Under the pieces are notes generated by a model. That model ran no database searches. It saw only the letters and a list, made by a program, of their open reading frames with translations, and was not told where the DNA came from. Below are positions 11,736-40,066 of a stretch of DNA of 48,850 nt, in pieces (position 1 is the first letter of the stretch; the number at the start of each line of letters is the position of its first letter). Position numbers and translations under genes: made by a program. The DNA lies in contig NZ_PVWJ01000022.1 of the NCBI RefSeq assembly GCF_003003775.1, positions 1 through 48,850 on the forward strand, read 5' to 3'. The stretch is from Merismopedia glauca CCAP 1448/3. Lineage in GTDB: Bacteria > Cyanobacteriota > Cyanobacteriia > Cyanobacteriales > CCAP-1448.

Positions 11736-14153
11736 TTAGTCCTCTTCAAGATGCAGAATATGTAGTTGTCCTGATGCCTCACCGACCACAATGGTCTTAC
11801 CATCATGTGTCACACCATAGTTACTAATAGCACTATCTGTATTGAAACTGGCAATGCAAATTCGGCGATCAAGATCCCATACATTCAAAGTATGGGAGGA
11901 ATGGGAAATAACTTGCTTACCATCTGATGATATTGCCATCTTCAAGATCGCTTTTCTGGAGATGAGAGAGTCTAACGCCAGATCTACCTCACTTTTTTGA
12001 CCTTTTTTCAGGATGTCTATTAAATCTGGGTACTCATTGAGTTCATATAACTGTAATCCACTATTTAAATCCCAAACTTTGATGATGGCTTCAGAACAGG
12101 CAGAAATGACTTGCTGTCCATCTGGAGAAATGCATAAGGCTGTTATTGGGGTTTTATGACCTTCTAAGGTCAATAAATCGACTTTATTGTTTAAATCCCA
12201 GACTCTAACATTTTGACCAGATCCAAAAATCAGTTTCTGACTATCTGGTGTTAATAGTAAAGCAGTTATTGGGGCTGTACCACCTTTTAAGGTCATAAGT
12301 AGATTACCGCTTTCGATCTCCCAAACCTTAATGGTGCGATCGCCTTCCTTGGCAGAAATCTTGGCTGAAATCAAGCGAGTTCCATCTGGGGTGACTATTA
12401 AGGTATTTATGGGTTGACTATCGCTGTAAAGATTGTGTATCTGTACCCCATTGTCTAGATTCCACATCCTAATTATGTTGTCATTTGCCACCGAGATGAC
12501 GTATTTACCATCCGGTGTAATTGTAACTGCGGTAATGAAATCGGGATGATGAAAACTGTGTAGAACCTCTTTAGTTTCAATCTTCCAGACACTTAACAGA
12601 GTGTATGCAGCCGCGATCGCTGTTTGACTATCTGGGGTGACTGCCAATATCTTCACAAATGAGCCTTGAGTGCCAAAAGTATCTAATAAAGCGCCATTTT
12701 TAAGGTTCCATATCTTAATTGTATTGTCTGTAGCTGCGGAAATCGTTTTTTTACCATCAGGTGTCATGGCGATCGCCGTCAGTCGATTCTGATGGGATGC
12801 AATCTGAGGTGACTTACCCATTCTCTCTAAATTCCAGACTTTGAAGATGCCATCGAGAGATGAGGAGACTAATCGTTTTCCATCTGGTGTGATCGCAAAT
12901 CGATCGATAGGCAAGACATGAGGGTGTAAGGTTGTGCTTAATTCCGTAAAAGTTTGAAAATCCCAGATTTTCAGATTACCTGAATCAGTAGCAGCTATTA
13001 GTAGTTTTTCATCTGGTGATATGGCAAAAGTAAAGATCGCTATATCACTGACATTAAATCGATCTCGTGCTTTACCTGTGGCTAAATCCCAAGTCTCAAT
13101 TGCGATCTCATCGGTGGGATTCCAGGATGCAGAAACAGCGAATTTTCCACTTGATGTTACAGCCAAGCTAGCCAGCAATGTTCCTAGTTCTGTTTTGAGA
13201 ACGTGCAGGAGTTCTCCAGTTTGGAAATTTCGGATCGTGAGAATTTTGGCTGCGTCGAGATCTGGGTTAGACTCTACACAAATGACTTGCTTACCATCGG
13301 GTGCGATTGCTGCTATCTCAATTGCTGGAGAAACATTTTCAATAGTCAAAAGATTGGTTTGGGATTGTAGATCCCAGAGTGCAAAAGTCCCGTTGCGAGA
13401 AATGGCGATCGCTTGGGTTTCATCATTTGTCGCGGCGATCGCCACTAGTTGTTGGTGGGGAGTGTGCCAAGTACCGATCGTGACTCCATCTTCTAAATTC
13501 CAGAGATTTAATGTGCCGTTCTCTGAAGCCGATAGAACCCGATTTGTCTGGGGTAGTAGCGTTAAAAACTCTATTGGTGCGGAATCATCGAAGGAACGGA
13601 TAACTGCGCCAGTGTTAAGATTCCATAGTTTCAGACCGTTGAAGGATTGAGAAACCACATTTTGTCCATCATGCATCATGACAAATGGACTGCTATAGCC
13701 CTCGAAGGTGTTTTCCAGAAAGCCCGAAGGTGGCGTTAGGCTGGGGGTTAAAGGACGTAACCAAGAAGTGTAGCGCCATTTTTGAGCTTGCTGGAGCAGT
13801 TTCTGAATGACGATACTGCTGTGACTCATGAGTCGACCTAGCAATTGTCCTGGTAATTGAGTCCGATCTTCAGCTAGGACATGGGCTGATAATCGAAGTG
13901 CATCTCGGAGCGAATGGAGATCGGTTTGATCTGGATCGGCAATGGGCAGAGCGAAGTGATCGCCAAGTTCATAGTCTGCAATCAATAGCTTTGGTTCCGA
14001 AAGAAAAATCTTAGCCTCTATGAAATTGAAACTGGTCAATATTTGGCGGAATTTCTCTGATTGTCCTGCCTGTACCAAGTAGCTAGGTAGATTAAGAGTC
14101 TCTCGCCGTTGGTCAAGTGGCATTGTGGTTAAGCGATCGCGTAAATTATTCAT
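11736..14153 (-). CDS. WD40-repeat protein, sensor half of a split STAND pair
   Basis: An 805-residue protein whose first 150 residues resemble the helical linker of single-chain bacterial NACHT/NB-ARC-WD40 proteins (LPSYLVQAGQSEKF, LIADYELGD, LRDALRLSAHVLAEDRTQLP, WLRPLTPSLTPPSGF). The rest consists of about 13-14 WD40 blades with repeated ITPDGKxxxS and (I/V)KVWDLxxG motifs, enough for two seven-bladed propellers. There is no nucleotide-binding domain. Its ATG overlaps the stop of the upstream NACHT gene by 8 bases (ATGAATAA), so translation is probably coupled and the two proteins likely work as one receptor. The ligand is unknown. A recent frameshift of a formerly fused gene is possible. 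Confidence 0.9.
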   Translation of the reverse strand: MNNLRDRLTTMPLDQRRETLNLPSYLVQAGQSEKFRQILTSFNFIEAKIFLSEPKLLIADYELGDHFALPIADPDQTDLHSLRDALRLSAHVLAEDRTQLPGQLLGRLMSHSSIVIQKLLQQAQKWRYTSWLRPLTPSLTPPSGFLENTFEGYSSPFVMMHDGQNVVSQSFNGLKLWNLNTGAVIRSFDDSAPIEFLTLLPQTNRVLSASENGTLNLWNLEDGVTIGTWHTPHQQLVAIAATNDETQAIAISRNGTFALWDLQSQTNLLTIENVSPAIEIAAIAPDGKQVICVESNPDLDAAKILTIRNFQTGELLHVLKTELGTLLASLAVTSSGKFAVSASWNPTDEIAIETWDLATGKARDRFNVSDIAIFTFAISPDEKLLIAATDSGNLKIWDFQTFTELSTTLHPHVLPIDRFAITPDGKRLVSSSLDGIFKVWNLERMGKSPQIASHQNRLTAIAMTPDGKKTISAATDNTIKIWNLKNGALLDTFGTQGSFVKILAVTPDSQTAIAAAYTLLSVWKIETKEVLHSFHHPDFITAVTITPDGKYVISVANDNIIRMWNLDNGVQIHNLYSDSQPINTLIVTPDGTRLISAKISAKEGDRTIKVWEIESGNLLMTLKGGTAPITALLLTPDSQKLIFGSGQNVRVWDLNNKVDLLTLEGHKTPITALCISPDGQQVISACSEAIIKVWDLNSGLQLYELNEYPDLIDILKKGQKSEVDLALDSLISRKAILKMAISSDGKQVISHSSHTLNVWDLDRRICIASFNTDSAISNYGVTHDGKTIVVGEASGQLHILHLEED

Positions 14154-15702
14154 TTTCTAGAACATCTTCAATTCCTTTGAGCAAGTGCTGGGCTATAGCG
14201 CCGTAAATCTCTGGAAAGGTCACGCCAGCCGCCTGAACGATATCATTACGGTGCAGAAAATCGCGAAAGCTACTGTGATAGATGCTGTAGCAGATTTGGC
14301 GATCGATATCTTGCTCGCTCAAAAACTGTTCCCACCGATCTAGTACTTCTTGTACTGCAAGTTCTGATTCGGTTGCATATTCTGAGATCAGCTTGCGAGA
14401 CACAGGTTGACTGATTTCCGCCAGAATATAGACAATCTTGATTTTGGCTTGCGGTAGAGGTTTATCTCTCATCCCCATGCGATACCAATGGTCTTCGTAA
14501 TAGTTTTCTAAACCTTTAGGCAACTGTTCGATCTTCAAATCCTGATAGAACCCATTCTCAATTTGAGGAAGAACGTAGCGCAAATACATGAAATTATTGG
14601 CACTTTTCTGAGCCAACTGTTCGATAAAGGCTTCCAGGGTGAGGTTTCTCTGAGCAATCCACGTTTCTAGACGAGAACGCCGTGCCGCTTGTCCGATATA
14701 CTCTTTGATATCTAACCGACTTGCTGCTGAGTAACGCATCAAGTCAAAAAGCTGCTGAGGGACGTGTACGACAAAAGGAAGAGTGACTTTACGCCGAGTC
14801 AGGATCAAATAAACGTTTTGCGGGAGGTAAGCCGGTAAATAGAGGATATTTGCGCCAGGATCTTGACTCTTTAAATCCACTTCATCTAGAGCATCGATCG
14901 CAATTACTAACTTCTCCTCTCCCCTCAATTTAGCGCTAGCTTCTTCTAGTAACTTGGCGAGAAAATTACCGTCTCGATGGGTATCAGGAGAAAATGGTTG
15001 ATAGGGAAGATGGTAGCGATCGCACAACTGGCTACACACACTAGTCAAAAATTGGTCGGCGCGATTTCTTCCTTGAGAACGAATATTGAAATAGGCAATA
15101 CATCCTTTATCTTGAGCAAATTTGGCTAAAATAGCACTTTTGCCGATACCTGGGTCTGCTTCAATCGTAAAATAGCCGTTGGGTTGATGGCTCAAGAAAT
15201 CTTCAATTTCGTCAAATACATACTTTCGTCCGACAAATTCTTGGGTTTTCTCATTGATTAAGGCTTGAAACTCTTTAAAAATAGAATAATTGGCAGATTG
15301 CGTATCAGTTGCAGAGCCTTTGCGACGTTTCCACTCCACATCAAATTTCGCTAAGTTTTCATGAATATTTTTTGACTTAAGTTCTAAAGTAAATCGCCAC
15401 TTTTTGCGTCCCTGTTTGCTGATGCGATCTACCAAAATACCTAAATCTTCCAAGCGGTTGAGAGATTCATTTACTTCAGATGTAGTAAGTCCATTACCTG
15501 GACAGTTTTTATCTGTTAAACGAGAGAGTACCTCTAAAGTTGTCTCTATCCATAGCTTAGGAGAAAGATCGCGATCGCAAAGCCAGGTATATTCCCAGTC
15601 AGTGTCAGGATCTTCCCAGTTATGGTCTACGCGAGTTAATAATGCTGCTAGTAAGTTCCGCGTGCGATTTTGAACCGCAGGTCCAAAGTTATCTCTCGGC
15701 AT
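14146..15702 (-). CDS. NACHT-type STAND NTPase with N-terminal winged-helix-like module
   Basis: A 518-residue P-loop ATPase of the STAND class, which acts as a nucleotide-dependent switch in signalling and anti-phage or conflict systems. The N-terminal 130 residues look like a winged-helix adaptor (LEDLGILVDR, KKWRFTLELKSK). The Walker A DPGIGKS is at about residue 185 and the Walker B VIAIDALDEVD near 270, which is typical of NACHT. A helical region follows. The protein ends just where single-chain homologues continue into a WD40 array, which here is encoded by the overlapping downstream gene. The promoter must lie in the 210-base region shared with the divergent GRDP-like gene. No enzymatic effector domain is recognised. 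Confidence 0.85.
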   Translation of the reverse strand: MPRDNFGPAVQNRTRNLLAALLTRVDHNWEDPDTDWEYTWLCDRDLSPKLWIETTLEVLSRLTDKNCPGNGLTTSEVNESLNRLEDLGILVDRISKQGRKKWRFTLELKSKNIHENLAKFDVEWKRRKGSATDTQSANYSIFKEFQALINEKTQEFVGRKYVFDEIEDFLSHQPNGYFTIEADPGIGKSAILAKFAQDKGCIAYFNIRSQGRNRADQFLTSVCSQLCDRYHLPYQPFSPDTHRDGNFLAKLLEEASAKLRGEEKLVIAIDALDEVDLKSQDPGANILYLPAYLPQNVYLILTRRKVTLPFVVHVPQQLFDLMRYSAASRLDIKEYIGQAARRSRLETWIAQRNLTLEAFIEQLAQKSANNFMYLRYVLPQIENGFYQDLKIEQLPKGLENYYEDHWYRMGMRDKPLPQAKIKIVYILAEISQPVSRKLISEYATESELAVQEVLDRWEQFLSEQDIDRQICYSIYHSSFRDFLHRNDIVQAAGVTFPEIYGAIAQHLLKGIEDVLENE

Positions 15703-36234: not shown

Positions 36235-36924
36235 ATGAAACTCGGATACTTACTATCTGGGGCGATCGCTTTGGGCATTTCTCTTAGTCCAAATTTGTCT
36301 GTAGTAGCTCAAACGCCTGCGCCCAATAACTCTCCGAGAATGGAATACAAATGGGGGGCTGAACTCAATCTAACTGAGGCTCAAAAAGCCCAAATGGAGC
36401 AAATTAAGCAATCTACCCAGTCTCAAATTGAAGCGGTACTCACACCCGAACAAAAAGCGCAATGGCAGGCGGCTCAACAAAATGGTCAGAAAATGCGTAG
36501 AGGGTTTGCCTCTTTAAATCTAACAGATGCTCAAAAAACCCGCATCAGTGAGATTAAGAAACAAAGTAAAGAGCAAATGAAAGCGCTATTAACTCCCGAA
36601 CAGGTTCAAAAATGGGAACAAGCACGGGCTGGTAAGAAAGGAGGTTGGGGCAAAAATTTGAACCTAACCGAAGCTCAAAAAGCCCAGATGAAACAGATTA
36701 AGGATGCCACTAAAGCTCAAATTGAGGCGGTACTGACACCAGAACAAAGAACTCAACTACAAGCAGCTAAACAAAGTGGTCAGAAGATGAGGCAGGCTTT
36801 TGCTTCTCTTAACCTCACCGATGCCCAAAAAACTCGCATTGAAGAGATTAAGAACCAAAGTAAAGAGCAGATGAAGGCGCTATTAACCCCCGAACAGCGT
36901 CAGCAACTAGAACAAGGTCGTTAA
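36235..36924 (+). CDS. Secreted Spy/CpxP-like LTxxQ repeat protein with internal duplication
   Basis: A 229-residue exported helical protein. A signal peptide (MKLGYLLSGAIALGISLSP, cleavage near VVAQ) is followed by four LTxxQ-type units: LNLTEAQKAQMEQIK, LNLTDAQKTRISEIK, LNLTEAQKAQMKQIK and LNLTDAQKTRIEEIK. Each is followed by an (I/M)(E/K)A(V/L)LTPEQ segment. Units 1-2 and 3-4 form a tandem duplication of about 92 residues with near-identical sequence. Spy and CpxP are periplasmic chaperone or stress-adaptor proteins that bind unfolded proteins. A similar role is inferred. Starts with ATG. A strong terminator follows 35 bases after the stop, so it is probably monocistronic. Confidence 0.82.
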   Translation: MKLGYLLSGAIALGISLSPNLSVVAQTPAPNNSPRMEYKWGAELNLTEAQKAQMEQIKQSTQSQIEAVLTPEQKAQWQAAQQNGQKMRRGFASLNLTDAQKTRISEIKKQSKEQMKALLTPEQVQKWEQARAGKKGGWGKNLNLTEAQKAQMKQIKDATKAQIEAVLTPEQRTQLQAAKQSGQKMRQAFASLNLTDAQKTRIEEIKNQSKEQMKALLTPEQRQQLEQGR

Positions 36925-36958
36925 CTGCTTGATGGTTAAAAACCAGAGCTATACAGAT

Positions 36959-36984
36959 GAAACCCACCTAGGTGGGTTTCTTTT
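36959..36984 (+). terminator. Rho-independent terminator of the Spy-like gene
   Basis: A self-complementary 22-mer with arms GAAACCCACCT and AGGTGGGTTTC is followed by TTTT. It lies just after the Spy-like stop codon and just before the omega-RNA-like element. Confidence 0.88.
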
Positions 36985-37030
36985 ATGCTGTCTGCCTTGG
37001 CTAATTTCTCACAGATTTGCTTTGAAGTCA

Positions 37031-37182
37031 TCAGACCAGGCGGGGAAAGCGATTCCCTGTCCTGAGTTCATCAAGCTGGGGAGATTTGCCCTCTTGGGCG
37101 ATTGGAGCAACCCTGTTGTCTAATGGCAAGTTGGTGAACCAAGAATCCCTAAAGTAGCGATAGCCACTGGTGGGAGTGTCAA
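37031..37182 (+). ncRNA. HEARO / omega-RNA-like structured element without a nuclease gene
   Basis: The sequence resembles the 3' portion of IscB-associated omega RNA (HEARO). It contains a GGGAA/TTCCC hairpin (37043-37057), a GCCC-TCTT-GGGC hairpin (37088-37099), the block ATTGGAGCAACCCTGTTGTC followed by TAATGGCAAG, a TTGGT/ACCAA hairpin (37131-37142), AGAATCCCT, then GGGAGTGTCAA, which matches what I recall of IS200/IS605-type right ends in cyanobacteria. The TCCC/GGGA closing pairs fit a terminal hairpin. No IscB- or TnpB-like ORF is on either side. The 5' limit is uncertain and may start nearer 36985. Recognition is from memory. Confidence 0.5.
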
Positions 37183-37519
37183 AATTTATGAATAGACTCT
37201 AATCTCAAAGCGTGGATCGTTGTTTTTAAGTTGATATTATCAGTGAAAAGCTTTGCTAAACATAGAGAGATATGTCGTTCTATTTAATTAAATGAAAGGA
37301 TGAAAAACCTGACTTAATACAGAATAGATAAAATAATCCTAAAACTTAGTCCCCTCCTTAGTATCAGACCCGTTCAGTCACTTAAAGACCGATGCAAATA
37401 TGCTAAGATAGAAAGATATTTTCGATTTAACTAAGTATTGACAGTTTCTCATGAAAACTAAGCCACTATTTAGCAGTTTGGCGCGTCAATAAATTAAAAG
37501 TTTTGGAGTTTTTCAAGAT

Positions 37520-40066
37520 ATGACAAGTTCCCCAGAGCGGATTATCCCTACAGATTTGCGTCAAGAAATTTCCCGCTCTTACTTGGAATATGCAATGAGC
37601 GTCATTGTGGGAAGAGCCTTACCAGACGCTAGAGATGGGTTAAAACCAGTGCATCGGCGGATTTTGTATGCGATGCATGAGTTGGGATTAACCCCAGAAC
37701 GTCCTTTTAGAAAGTGCGCCAGGGTAGTCGGGGAAGTATTGGGTAAGTATCACCCCCACGGAGATACAGCCGTATACGACGCTTTAGTGCGGATGGCGCA
37801 AGATTTCTCCATGCGATCGCCTCTCATTAACGGACATGGTAATTTCGGCTCTGTGGATAACGATCCCCCAGCCGCGATGCGTTACACTGAGTGTCGCCTC
37901 CAAACCCTGACTAGTAACGCTATGTTGCGTGATATTGAGTCAGAAACGGTTGATTTTATTGATAATTTCGATGGTTCTCAGCAAGAACCCGTAGTTTTAC
38001 CAGCCAGGATTCCCCAGCTACTAGTTAATGGCTCATCTGGGATCGCTGTGGGGATGGCGACGAATATTCCTCCCCACAACTTAGGGGAAATAGTCGATGG
38101 TTTGATTGCTCTAATTGAAAATCCCGAAATCACCGATATTCAATTAATGCAGTATATACCTGGACCAGATTTTCCCACAGGGGCGCTCATTATTGGCGGT
38201 AGCGGCATTAAAGAAGCATACACCACTGGCAGAGGTTCGATTACCATGCGGGGTGTGGCTCAAATCGAAACTGTAGAAAGTCGGGGTAGACCAGATCGAG
38301 AAGCTATCATCATTACTGAGTTACCCTATCAAACCAACAAAGCTGCCCTAATTGAAAGAATTGCCGATCTAGTTAACGATAAGAAATTAGAAGGGATCGC
38401 AGATATCAGGGATGAAAGCGATCGCGATGGCATGAGAATCGTCATCGAACTCAAGCGCGATGCTTACCCCAAAGTAGTTCTCAATAACCTGTACAAGCAA
38501 ACCCCAATTCAAGCTAATTTTGGGGCAAATATGTTGGCATTAGTCAACGGTGAGCCGCAAGTTATTACTCTCAGACAGTTCCTGCAAGTATTTTTAGATT
38601 TCCGCATTGAATGCATCACTCGTCGCACCCAATACGAACTCAAAAAAGCCGAAGATAGAGATATAATTTTGCAGGGTTTGCTGATTGCGTTAGCGAATTT
38701 AGACAGAATTATTGAACTAATCCGTCGTGCGGCTGATACCCCCACCGCACGTCAAGAAATGATGGATAGCTACGGTTTATTGGAAGTCCAAGCCGATGCT
38801 ATTCTCCAAATGCAACTCCGGCGATTAACCGCTTTAGAAGCCGAAAAAATCCGCCTGGAACACGAAGAATTACAAGCTCAAATTAATGACCTGAAAGACA
38901 TCTTAGCCAAGAGAAGTCGGATTCTGGAAATTATTCAAGCTGAAGCTAAAGAAATCAGAGCCAGTCACGCTACCCCACGCCAAACCATTATTGAACCAGG
39001 GGAAGACGATTTATTAGATATAGATTTAATTGCTAACGAAAAATCGGCGATTTTGCTGACCGAACAAGGCTATATCAAAAGAATGCCCGTCGATACCTTT
39101 GAAGCTCAAAACCGAGCCACGCGGGGTAAAGCGGGGACGAAGATGAAAGAAGATGATGTAGTTCAGCACTTCTTTACCTGTTGCGACCATGATAGCGTCT
39201 TATTCTTCAGCGATCGCGGTGTCGTCTACTGTCTCAAAGCCTATCAAATCCCCGTCAGTTCCCGCACTGCTAGAGGGACACCCATCGTCCAATTGCTACC
39301 CATTCCTCCAGCCGAAAAGATTACCTCTATCGTCTCAGTTAGCGAGTTTACCGACGAAGAATATCTAGTTATGCTCACTGGTAAAGGATATGTGAAAAAG
39401 ACTGCCCTATCAGCTTTTAGCAGCATCCGCGCCAATGGATTAATCGCCATTTCCCTAGAAGAAGGAGATCGACTCCGGTGGGTGCGTAGAGCTAAACCAG
39501 AAGATAGTATCATCATCGGTACTCGTCAGGGCATGACAATTCATTTCCGCACCAGTCACGAACAACTTCGTCCTTTAGGAAGGGCTACCCGTGGGGTTAA
39601 ATCCATGAGTTTGAAGCCGAAAGACGAATTGATCAGTATGGATATTATCCCATCGCAAATCCTCAATACCATTAGCGACACCACCGAAGAAGAAACTAGC
39701 GAAGAAACTGTCGTACCAGCCGGAGAAGGACCTTGGGTATTAGTAATTACCACTGGTGGACTGGGTAAACGAGTCCCAGTTTCTCGGTTTAGACTGCAAA
39801 ATCGGGCAGGACTTGGGGTATTAGCGATAAAATTCCGTAAATCTGGCGATAAACTAGCAGCATTACGCATCGTGAATGCCGACGATGAGTTAATGATTGT
39901 CACGAGTCGGGGAATTATTATCCGTCAAGCCATCAATGCCATTTCACCCCAATCGCGGATGGCGACAGGGGTGAGGGTACAAAAACTAGATGATGATGAT
40001 GCGATCGCTGCTGTGGCTCTAGTTCCTCCCTCTAACGGCGAAGAAGATCTCGAAGAGACGGAGTAA
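37520..40066 (+). CDS. gyrA: DNA gyrase/topoisomerase IV subunit A
   Basis: The DNA-cleaving subunit of type IIA topoisomerase, which with GyrB introduces negative supercoils. The 848 residues are a usual length. The catalytic tyrosine is Tyr122 in [10 protein letters not shown]. The quinolone-resistance region [10 protein letters not shown] (residues 78-87) has Thr83 and Asp87. The coiled-coil gate and the six-bladed C-terminal pinwheel follow. The GyrA box QRRGGKG is replaced by [10 protein letters not shown], so a ParC-type paralogue is not strictly excluded. Starts with ATG after a GGAG ribosome-binding sequence. A MITE copy has inserted directly at its 3' end, with the target duplication overlapping the last two bases of the stop codon. 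Confidence 0.94.

Follow-up and report, generated by a model that had tools for sequence, protein, structure and literature searches.

The spacer in front of gyrA in Merismopedia glauca CCAP 1448/3 raises the question of what a guide-RNA-like structure is doing there when no nuclease gene lies beside it. The window analysed here was a stretch of 48,850 nt (contig NZ_PVWJ01000022.1, positions 1 to 48,850, forward strand). Within it, an initial annotation had marked 36985-37182 as a solo omega-RNA resembling HEARO, the RNA partner of IscB nucleases, or the right end of an IS200/IS605 element, which could be a trans-acting guide RNA or a transposon scar. The LTXXQ-family gene (36235-36924, +), identified from the ORF list and PF07813, is followed by its intrinsic terminator (36959-36980, +) directly 5' of the element, and gyrA (37520-40066) lies downstream. 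The LTXXQ protein shows an internal duplication, with four stretches matched by PF07813. The sequence blocks quoted in the annotation were present at the positions given, and the ORFs of the region bore out that no nuclease gene stands in the spacer between the LTXXQ gene and gyrA. Neither tnpB nor tnpA was found in cis at the element by ORFs and the tnpB panel.

HEARO (RF02033), the omega-RNA of IscB and IsrB, is the guide RNA of a sister IS200/IS605 nuclease. It has the arrangement opposite to that of a TnpB reRNA, with the guide at the 5' end. No Rfam family reached its gathering score anywhere in the window, and RF02033 was absent from the seven cmscan matches up to E 10 in 36900-37540. 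A match to sroH (E 0.0004; 25.7 bits, where the gathering score is 80) corresponded to the upstream terminator hairpin and was rejected. The sole RF02033 match reported in the genome was at C58 (E 1.5e-4), and its 32 bits lay below the cut-off of 83. That HEARO-like match (L001, 1501-1698) adjoins a gene of 369 aa in which Pfam shows an RRXRR domain but no HNH domain, so that the pair resembles an IsrB locus. The general look of chained hairpins, the IS200/IS605 ancestry in common and the presence of this match in the same genome would suit an IscB-type omega-RNA, as first proposed. However, the element before gyrA gave no covariance match to RF02033, overlaps the 3' coding end of tnpB and terminates in a tnpB-element terminus, and an IscB type is extremely improbable.

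The right end of a tnpB element, equal to a complete TnpB-type omega-RNA (reRNA) scaffold of 106 nt, was identified at 37077..37182 (+) by a covariance model (R1) and by blastn to the right ends of tnpB elements. It begins with a tnpB 3' coding remnant (37077..37157, +), still in frame, which comprises 26 codons reading W and GDLPSWAIGATLLSNGKLVNQESLK and ends in the stop codon TAG (37155-37157). The tnpB panel detected this remnant by tblastn at E 1e-6 to 3e-5, and tnpB homology in the window copy extends no further than 9 nt upstream of the scaffold core. The first database matches were to the 3' ends of plasmid genes in Stanieria and Nostoc which are annotated as RNA-guided endonuclease TnpB family protein. 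The encoded proteins end in GEIPSWAVGATLLSNGNSMIEESHGFRR, GDLPSWAIGASLLSNGESMNVESPYL and GETPSWAFGEILMSNGDSLNQESPRL, the same kind of C-terminal tail as that read in the window. A subterminal right-end hairpin, TCCC ... GGGA, with an outer stem of 4 bp and an imperfect inner part (37146..37175, +), was obtained from the single-sequence fold and from the consensus pairs (columns 72-75/107-110). GAAT stands before it (37143-37146, +), and the element terminus TCAA (37179..37182, +), a right cleavage site of transposon type, reads GTGGGAGTGTCAA in its context. In IS608, a GAAT in front of the hairpin and a terminal TCAA are the recognition and cleavage sequences of the right end, and the two motifs may have these roles here as well.

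The boundaries could be set by relatives with several near-identical copies. In these the right end always read TCAA (in the form ...GTGTCAA) and then passed into unrelated flank, so 37182 is the last base of the element, as had been annotated, and a TnpB guide would start at 37183. The putative guide position, AATTTATGAATAGACTCTAA (37183..37202, +), is host flank outside the element directly after the terminus, in keeping with PMC8612924 and PMC10278001, which put the guide beyond the right end. It is thus 3' of the scaffold, whereas the guide had been assumed to lie 5' of it. On the left, TTAT preceded the element in five of the seven multi-copy groups inspected and a TTAC-like sequence in one, the seventh being without a resolved boundary. 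The extent proposed in the initial annotation held for the homologous part, 37077-37182, and failed for 36985-37076 (+), which showed no blastn alignment at E 1e-3 among 100 genomes and only a 20-nt match (E 0.19) in its own genome. A left end within 36985-37076 was ruled out by comparison with the left ends of 34 full copies, none of which was matched. As it has neither the remainder of tnpB nor a left end that can be recognised, the window copy is truly solo; its own TAM is not readable for lack of a left end.

Homologous copies, on which the annotation had made its proposal depend, were found in many genomes. With 36985-37200 as blastn query against 100 genomes including the own one, matches at E 1e-3 or better were revealed in 25, the best in relatives at E 4.3e-22, and nearly all of them begin no earlier than query position 87, which corresponds to 37071. 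Of the 29 foreign loci kept, most either show a long tnpB frame that leads into the match or are cut off by the end of the contig before such a frame could be seen; five (L028, L031, L034, L035 and L036) look TnpB-less, and L017 keeps a short tnpB stretch. The nearest right end inspected belongs to an element with near-full tnpB in a Kastovskya adunca MAG, and is identical to the window at 87 of 99 aligned bases. An exact 39-base core pattern was present at 23 loci in named cyanobacterial genomes, and at 19 of these it is directly preceded by 1032 nt or more of tnpB, in 18 of the 19 as an open frame of at least 344 codons. The remaining loci keep 525 nt (L206), 267 nt (L217), 53 nt (L213) and 21 nt (L207) of tnpB. 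These core-pattern loci with attached tnpB are independent support for the predicted TnpB identity. The proposal of an IS200/IS605 right end was confirmed by the in-frame tnpB tail, the R1 match, the terminus and the tnpB attached in relatives, and the term solo omega-RNA is appropriate for a TnpB-type scaffold with no tnpB in cis.

For R1, 19 training sequences were chosen from 30 candidate right ends: 18 of the 29 that a search with the window sequence had returned, and L009. Solo copies, duplicates, two very long ones and the window copy itself were left out. Its alignment gave a consensus of 27 pairs, 20 of them with compensatory changes. On the window, R1 scored 89.7 bits over model positions 1-99 of 99, at E 2.9e-20 over 88,103 bases, a value flattered and not fully independent because 18 of the 19 training rows had been found via similarity to the window; this bias touches neither the compensatory changes nor the attached tnpB genes. 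Searched over the own genome, the window copy was matched at E 1.7e-18, and it keeps 26 of the 27 pairs. The free fold of a 111-nt piece was unremarkable (z -1.40; terminal hairpin alone z -2.30). The evidence for the predicted structure is comparative, and the free-fold z-score is uninformative.

A search for a nuclease elsewhere in the genome, which had been advised, revealed an intact TnpB of the same family as the element. R1 matched the own genome at C22 (the window copy), C15, C190 and C70 at E 5.5e-6 or better, and at C16 (E 0.017) and C72 (E 0.24). Among the first five of these copies tnpB was present only at C15, leaving two or three TnpB-less ones besides the window copy. The C15 TnpB has 389 aa, shares about 60% identity with the proteins of Stanieria and Nostoc, and carries OrfB_IS605 and Cas12f1-like_TNB domains, its RuvC acidic residues looking intact by eye. 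The scaffolds of window and C15 agree at 72 of 90 aligned bases. The C190 scaffold (L074:1444-1543, -) is a second TnpB-less one of the window type, matched at E 9e-15 with 25 of 27 pairs, and no tnpB homology was found upstream of it. Matches to Y1 transposase (PF01797) occur at five places in the genome. Two very different TnpB-like proteins, with 413 and 447 codons open and Cas12f1-like_TNB matches, were also observed at C91 (L010) and C101 (L011).

At E 1e-4, R1 matched 77 of 100 genomes, the own one included. A sample of 87 copies, consisting of 82 of the 128 R1 matches in 15 genomes and 5 own copies (C16 being counted as solo although its match is weak, E 0.017), was sorted into 34 full copies, 5 full-length but disrupted, 6 members of a long-RNA family which were set aside, and 42 truncated. 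Among the truncated copies, 28 of 42 retain no more than 130 nt of tnpB, against about 4 expected from evenly spread breakpoints, and very diverged tnpB could escape the panel in this count. The null was a uniform breakpoint (130/1250), a simple model of our own, and its p of 3.6e-18 overstates the case, since the null is simple and copies within one genome are not independent. Seventeen of the 28 scaffold-only copies came from one genome, G087; without it the ratio was 11 of 16, and in G038 it was 0 of 4. G087 (L087-L132) carries 36 scaffold matches in total. The skew of truncation toward the scaffold is real in the copies examined, and it may have been caused by selection for the RNA, by a preferred breakpoint or by sampling. 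Of the TnpB-less copies, 30 of 34 have no left end, and left-end-like sequence was seen in the other 4. The mean share of pairs kept was 0.850 in solo copies (38 rows) against 0.898 in those with tnpB (21 rows; p 0.03); pair keeping is thus high but slightly lower in solo copies, and by itself is no proof of selection.

The long-RNA family ends in the same scaffold. It is a structured RNA of about 315 nt, in which a conserved 5' domain of about 220 nt is followed by the TnpB-type scaffold and right end. Copies were located at L075:1284-1598 (C70 of the own genome, about 14143-14457), L095:329-645, L148, L149, L138, L150 and L168-L183. The upstream domain is common to the C70 copy and to copies in G001, G094 (three) and G085, and is lacking in the window copy. 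Used alone as query, it gave alignments of at least 100 nt in 17 of the 100 genomes, M. glauca counted among them, with several copies in some. In the 20 loci examined, from which 10 with only a short palindromic match were left out, the R1 scaffold followed directly downstream in 18. No tnpB homology was found within about 3 kb in any of the 20, while three positive controls were found, nor in the two plasmid loci of about 8 kb. An alignment of 16 loci gave 56 pairs, 32 of them with compensatory changes, and a scan of six loci at E 0.1 gave no match to an Rfam family. Two plasmids, one from Gloeocapsopsis dulcis and one from Dolichospermum flos-aquae, have the long RNA in regions without annotation. 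It is possibly a new RNA family, and since it is multi-copy it is probably mobile. Near one copy, on the other strand, a group I intron match (93.8 bits) was observed at L138:1777-2031.

For a role at the present site, the gyrA leader and a guide target were considered. Position and strand of the element would allow it to form part of a conserved gyrA leader, as had been suggested. However, when the whole intergenic stretch was compared by blastn with the gyrA regions of 29 relatives, only weak short matches appeared, of which the best (E 0.004) immediately preceded the start codon, and no counterpart of the element was found upstream of gyrA in these 29, of which L062 tests little because it has only about 311 nt there. 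Moreover, the sole promoter-like site of the spacer (37309-37337) is downstream of the element and at chance level, with 1 found against 1.2 expected, and the probability of a leader function is close to nil. In 36985-37077 no promoter site was detected by a scan which knows only the sigma-70 consensus. For TTAT plus the first 13 guide bases there was no match in the genome at up to one mismatch, and at up to three mismatches there were 43 matches against 51 for a reversed control pattern. The putative guide has no target in its own genome beyond chance, and matches only the DNA adjoining the element itself.

The pre-gyrA element is probably a transposon scar which holds a complete TnpB guide scaffold and is most likely inert. 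Of the readings offered by the initial annotation, that of a scar is the best: the right end, its exact 3' boundary and the kept base pairs were directly observed, and neither tnpB nor a recognisable left end was present. A tnpB-carrying IS200/IS605-type element would once have stood in the spacer between the LTXXQ gene and gyrA, and would have lost the left end together with tnpB up to the last 26 codons, so that the right end stayed behind. Because the omega-RNA scaffold overlaps the 3' end of tnpB, what remains would be a complete guide scaffold with its original guide position, the host bases from 37183. Today it would lie there as an inert scar that has no promoter. An empty site in a close relative was not found, and the order of the losses is not readable. 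Against the scar reading, 26 of 27 pairs and a still open coding tail are equally expected of a retained or recent copy, and the scaffold-only skew of the truncations is not predicted by plain random decay.

The kept pairs and the scaffold-only skew lend something to a rival reading, in which the element still functions as an orphan omega-RNA: the C15 TnpB would take it up in trans and cut TAM-bearing copies of the bases from 37183, that is, chromosomes or incoming DNA without the insertion. If transcribed, the window scaffold could in principle be loaded by this intact nuclease of the same family, whose own scaffold is similar; other TnpB-less copies exist in the genome, and TnpB is also active when its guide RNA is provided on a second plasmid (PMC8612924). 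This reading is unlikely, as no promoter-like site stands in front of the scaffold and a terminator lies just upstream, the guide found no TAM-flanked match in the genome at up to one mismatch, solo copies keep somewhat fewer pairs than tnpB copies, and the element is absent from the same site in 29 relatives. A miniature non-autonomous element of PATE or MITE type, with both ends kept, the gene between them deleted, and movable by TnpA in trans, would agree with the left-end-like sequence in a few TnpB-less copies, with the Y1-transposase matches and with a TTAT at 36983-36986, in the terminator tail, TTAT being the insertion motif of most multi-copy groups. It is very improbable, given that the window copy matches no left end of a full copy and that no second copy of the whole 36985-37182 unit was found in the genome. 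PATEs, which are reportedly treated in a Haloquadratum paper, and other IS200/IS605 miniature elements are also TnpB-less and end in a right end; the window copy differs in that no left end was found.

Stand-alone omega-RNAs of IscB are known in Ktedonobacter. Guide-RNA loci without nuclease gene are found in both cases, the window copy being of TnpB type and known from sequence. In the published systems a TnpB reRNA combines the last part of tnpB with the right end, and its guide comes from beyond the element (PMC8612924); the scaffold of AmaTnpB measures 106 nt after processing, and those of orthologs 79-466 nt (PMC10278001). Compared on that basis with the reRNA of ISDra2 (PMC8612924) and AmaTnpB (PMC10278001), the window scaffold has the same make-up and the guide position directly outside, a subterminal hairpin no more than about 10 nt away from the 3' end, and a length equal to that of processed AmaTnpB, whereas it has no tnpB in cis. 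A paper on TnpB-less omega-RNAs of cyanobacteria was not found in the open-access library searched, and one may still be in print.

With these results the element before gyrA is assigned to TnpB and not to IscB, and its ends are fixed to the base. Among the copies examined, TnpB-less guide scaffolds outnumber intact tnpB genes in the genome of M. glauca. It is conceivable, with a low probability, that the genome keeps a set of TnpB-less guide RNAs (the window copy, C190 and the long form at C70) served in trans by the single intact TnpB of C15. If so, the tendency of truncations to fall at the scaffold's 5' edge would mean selection keeping the guide RNA after loss of the nuclease gene, and one TnpB would guard many insertion sites as a shared nuclease for orphan guides.
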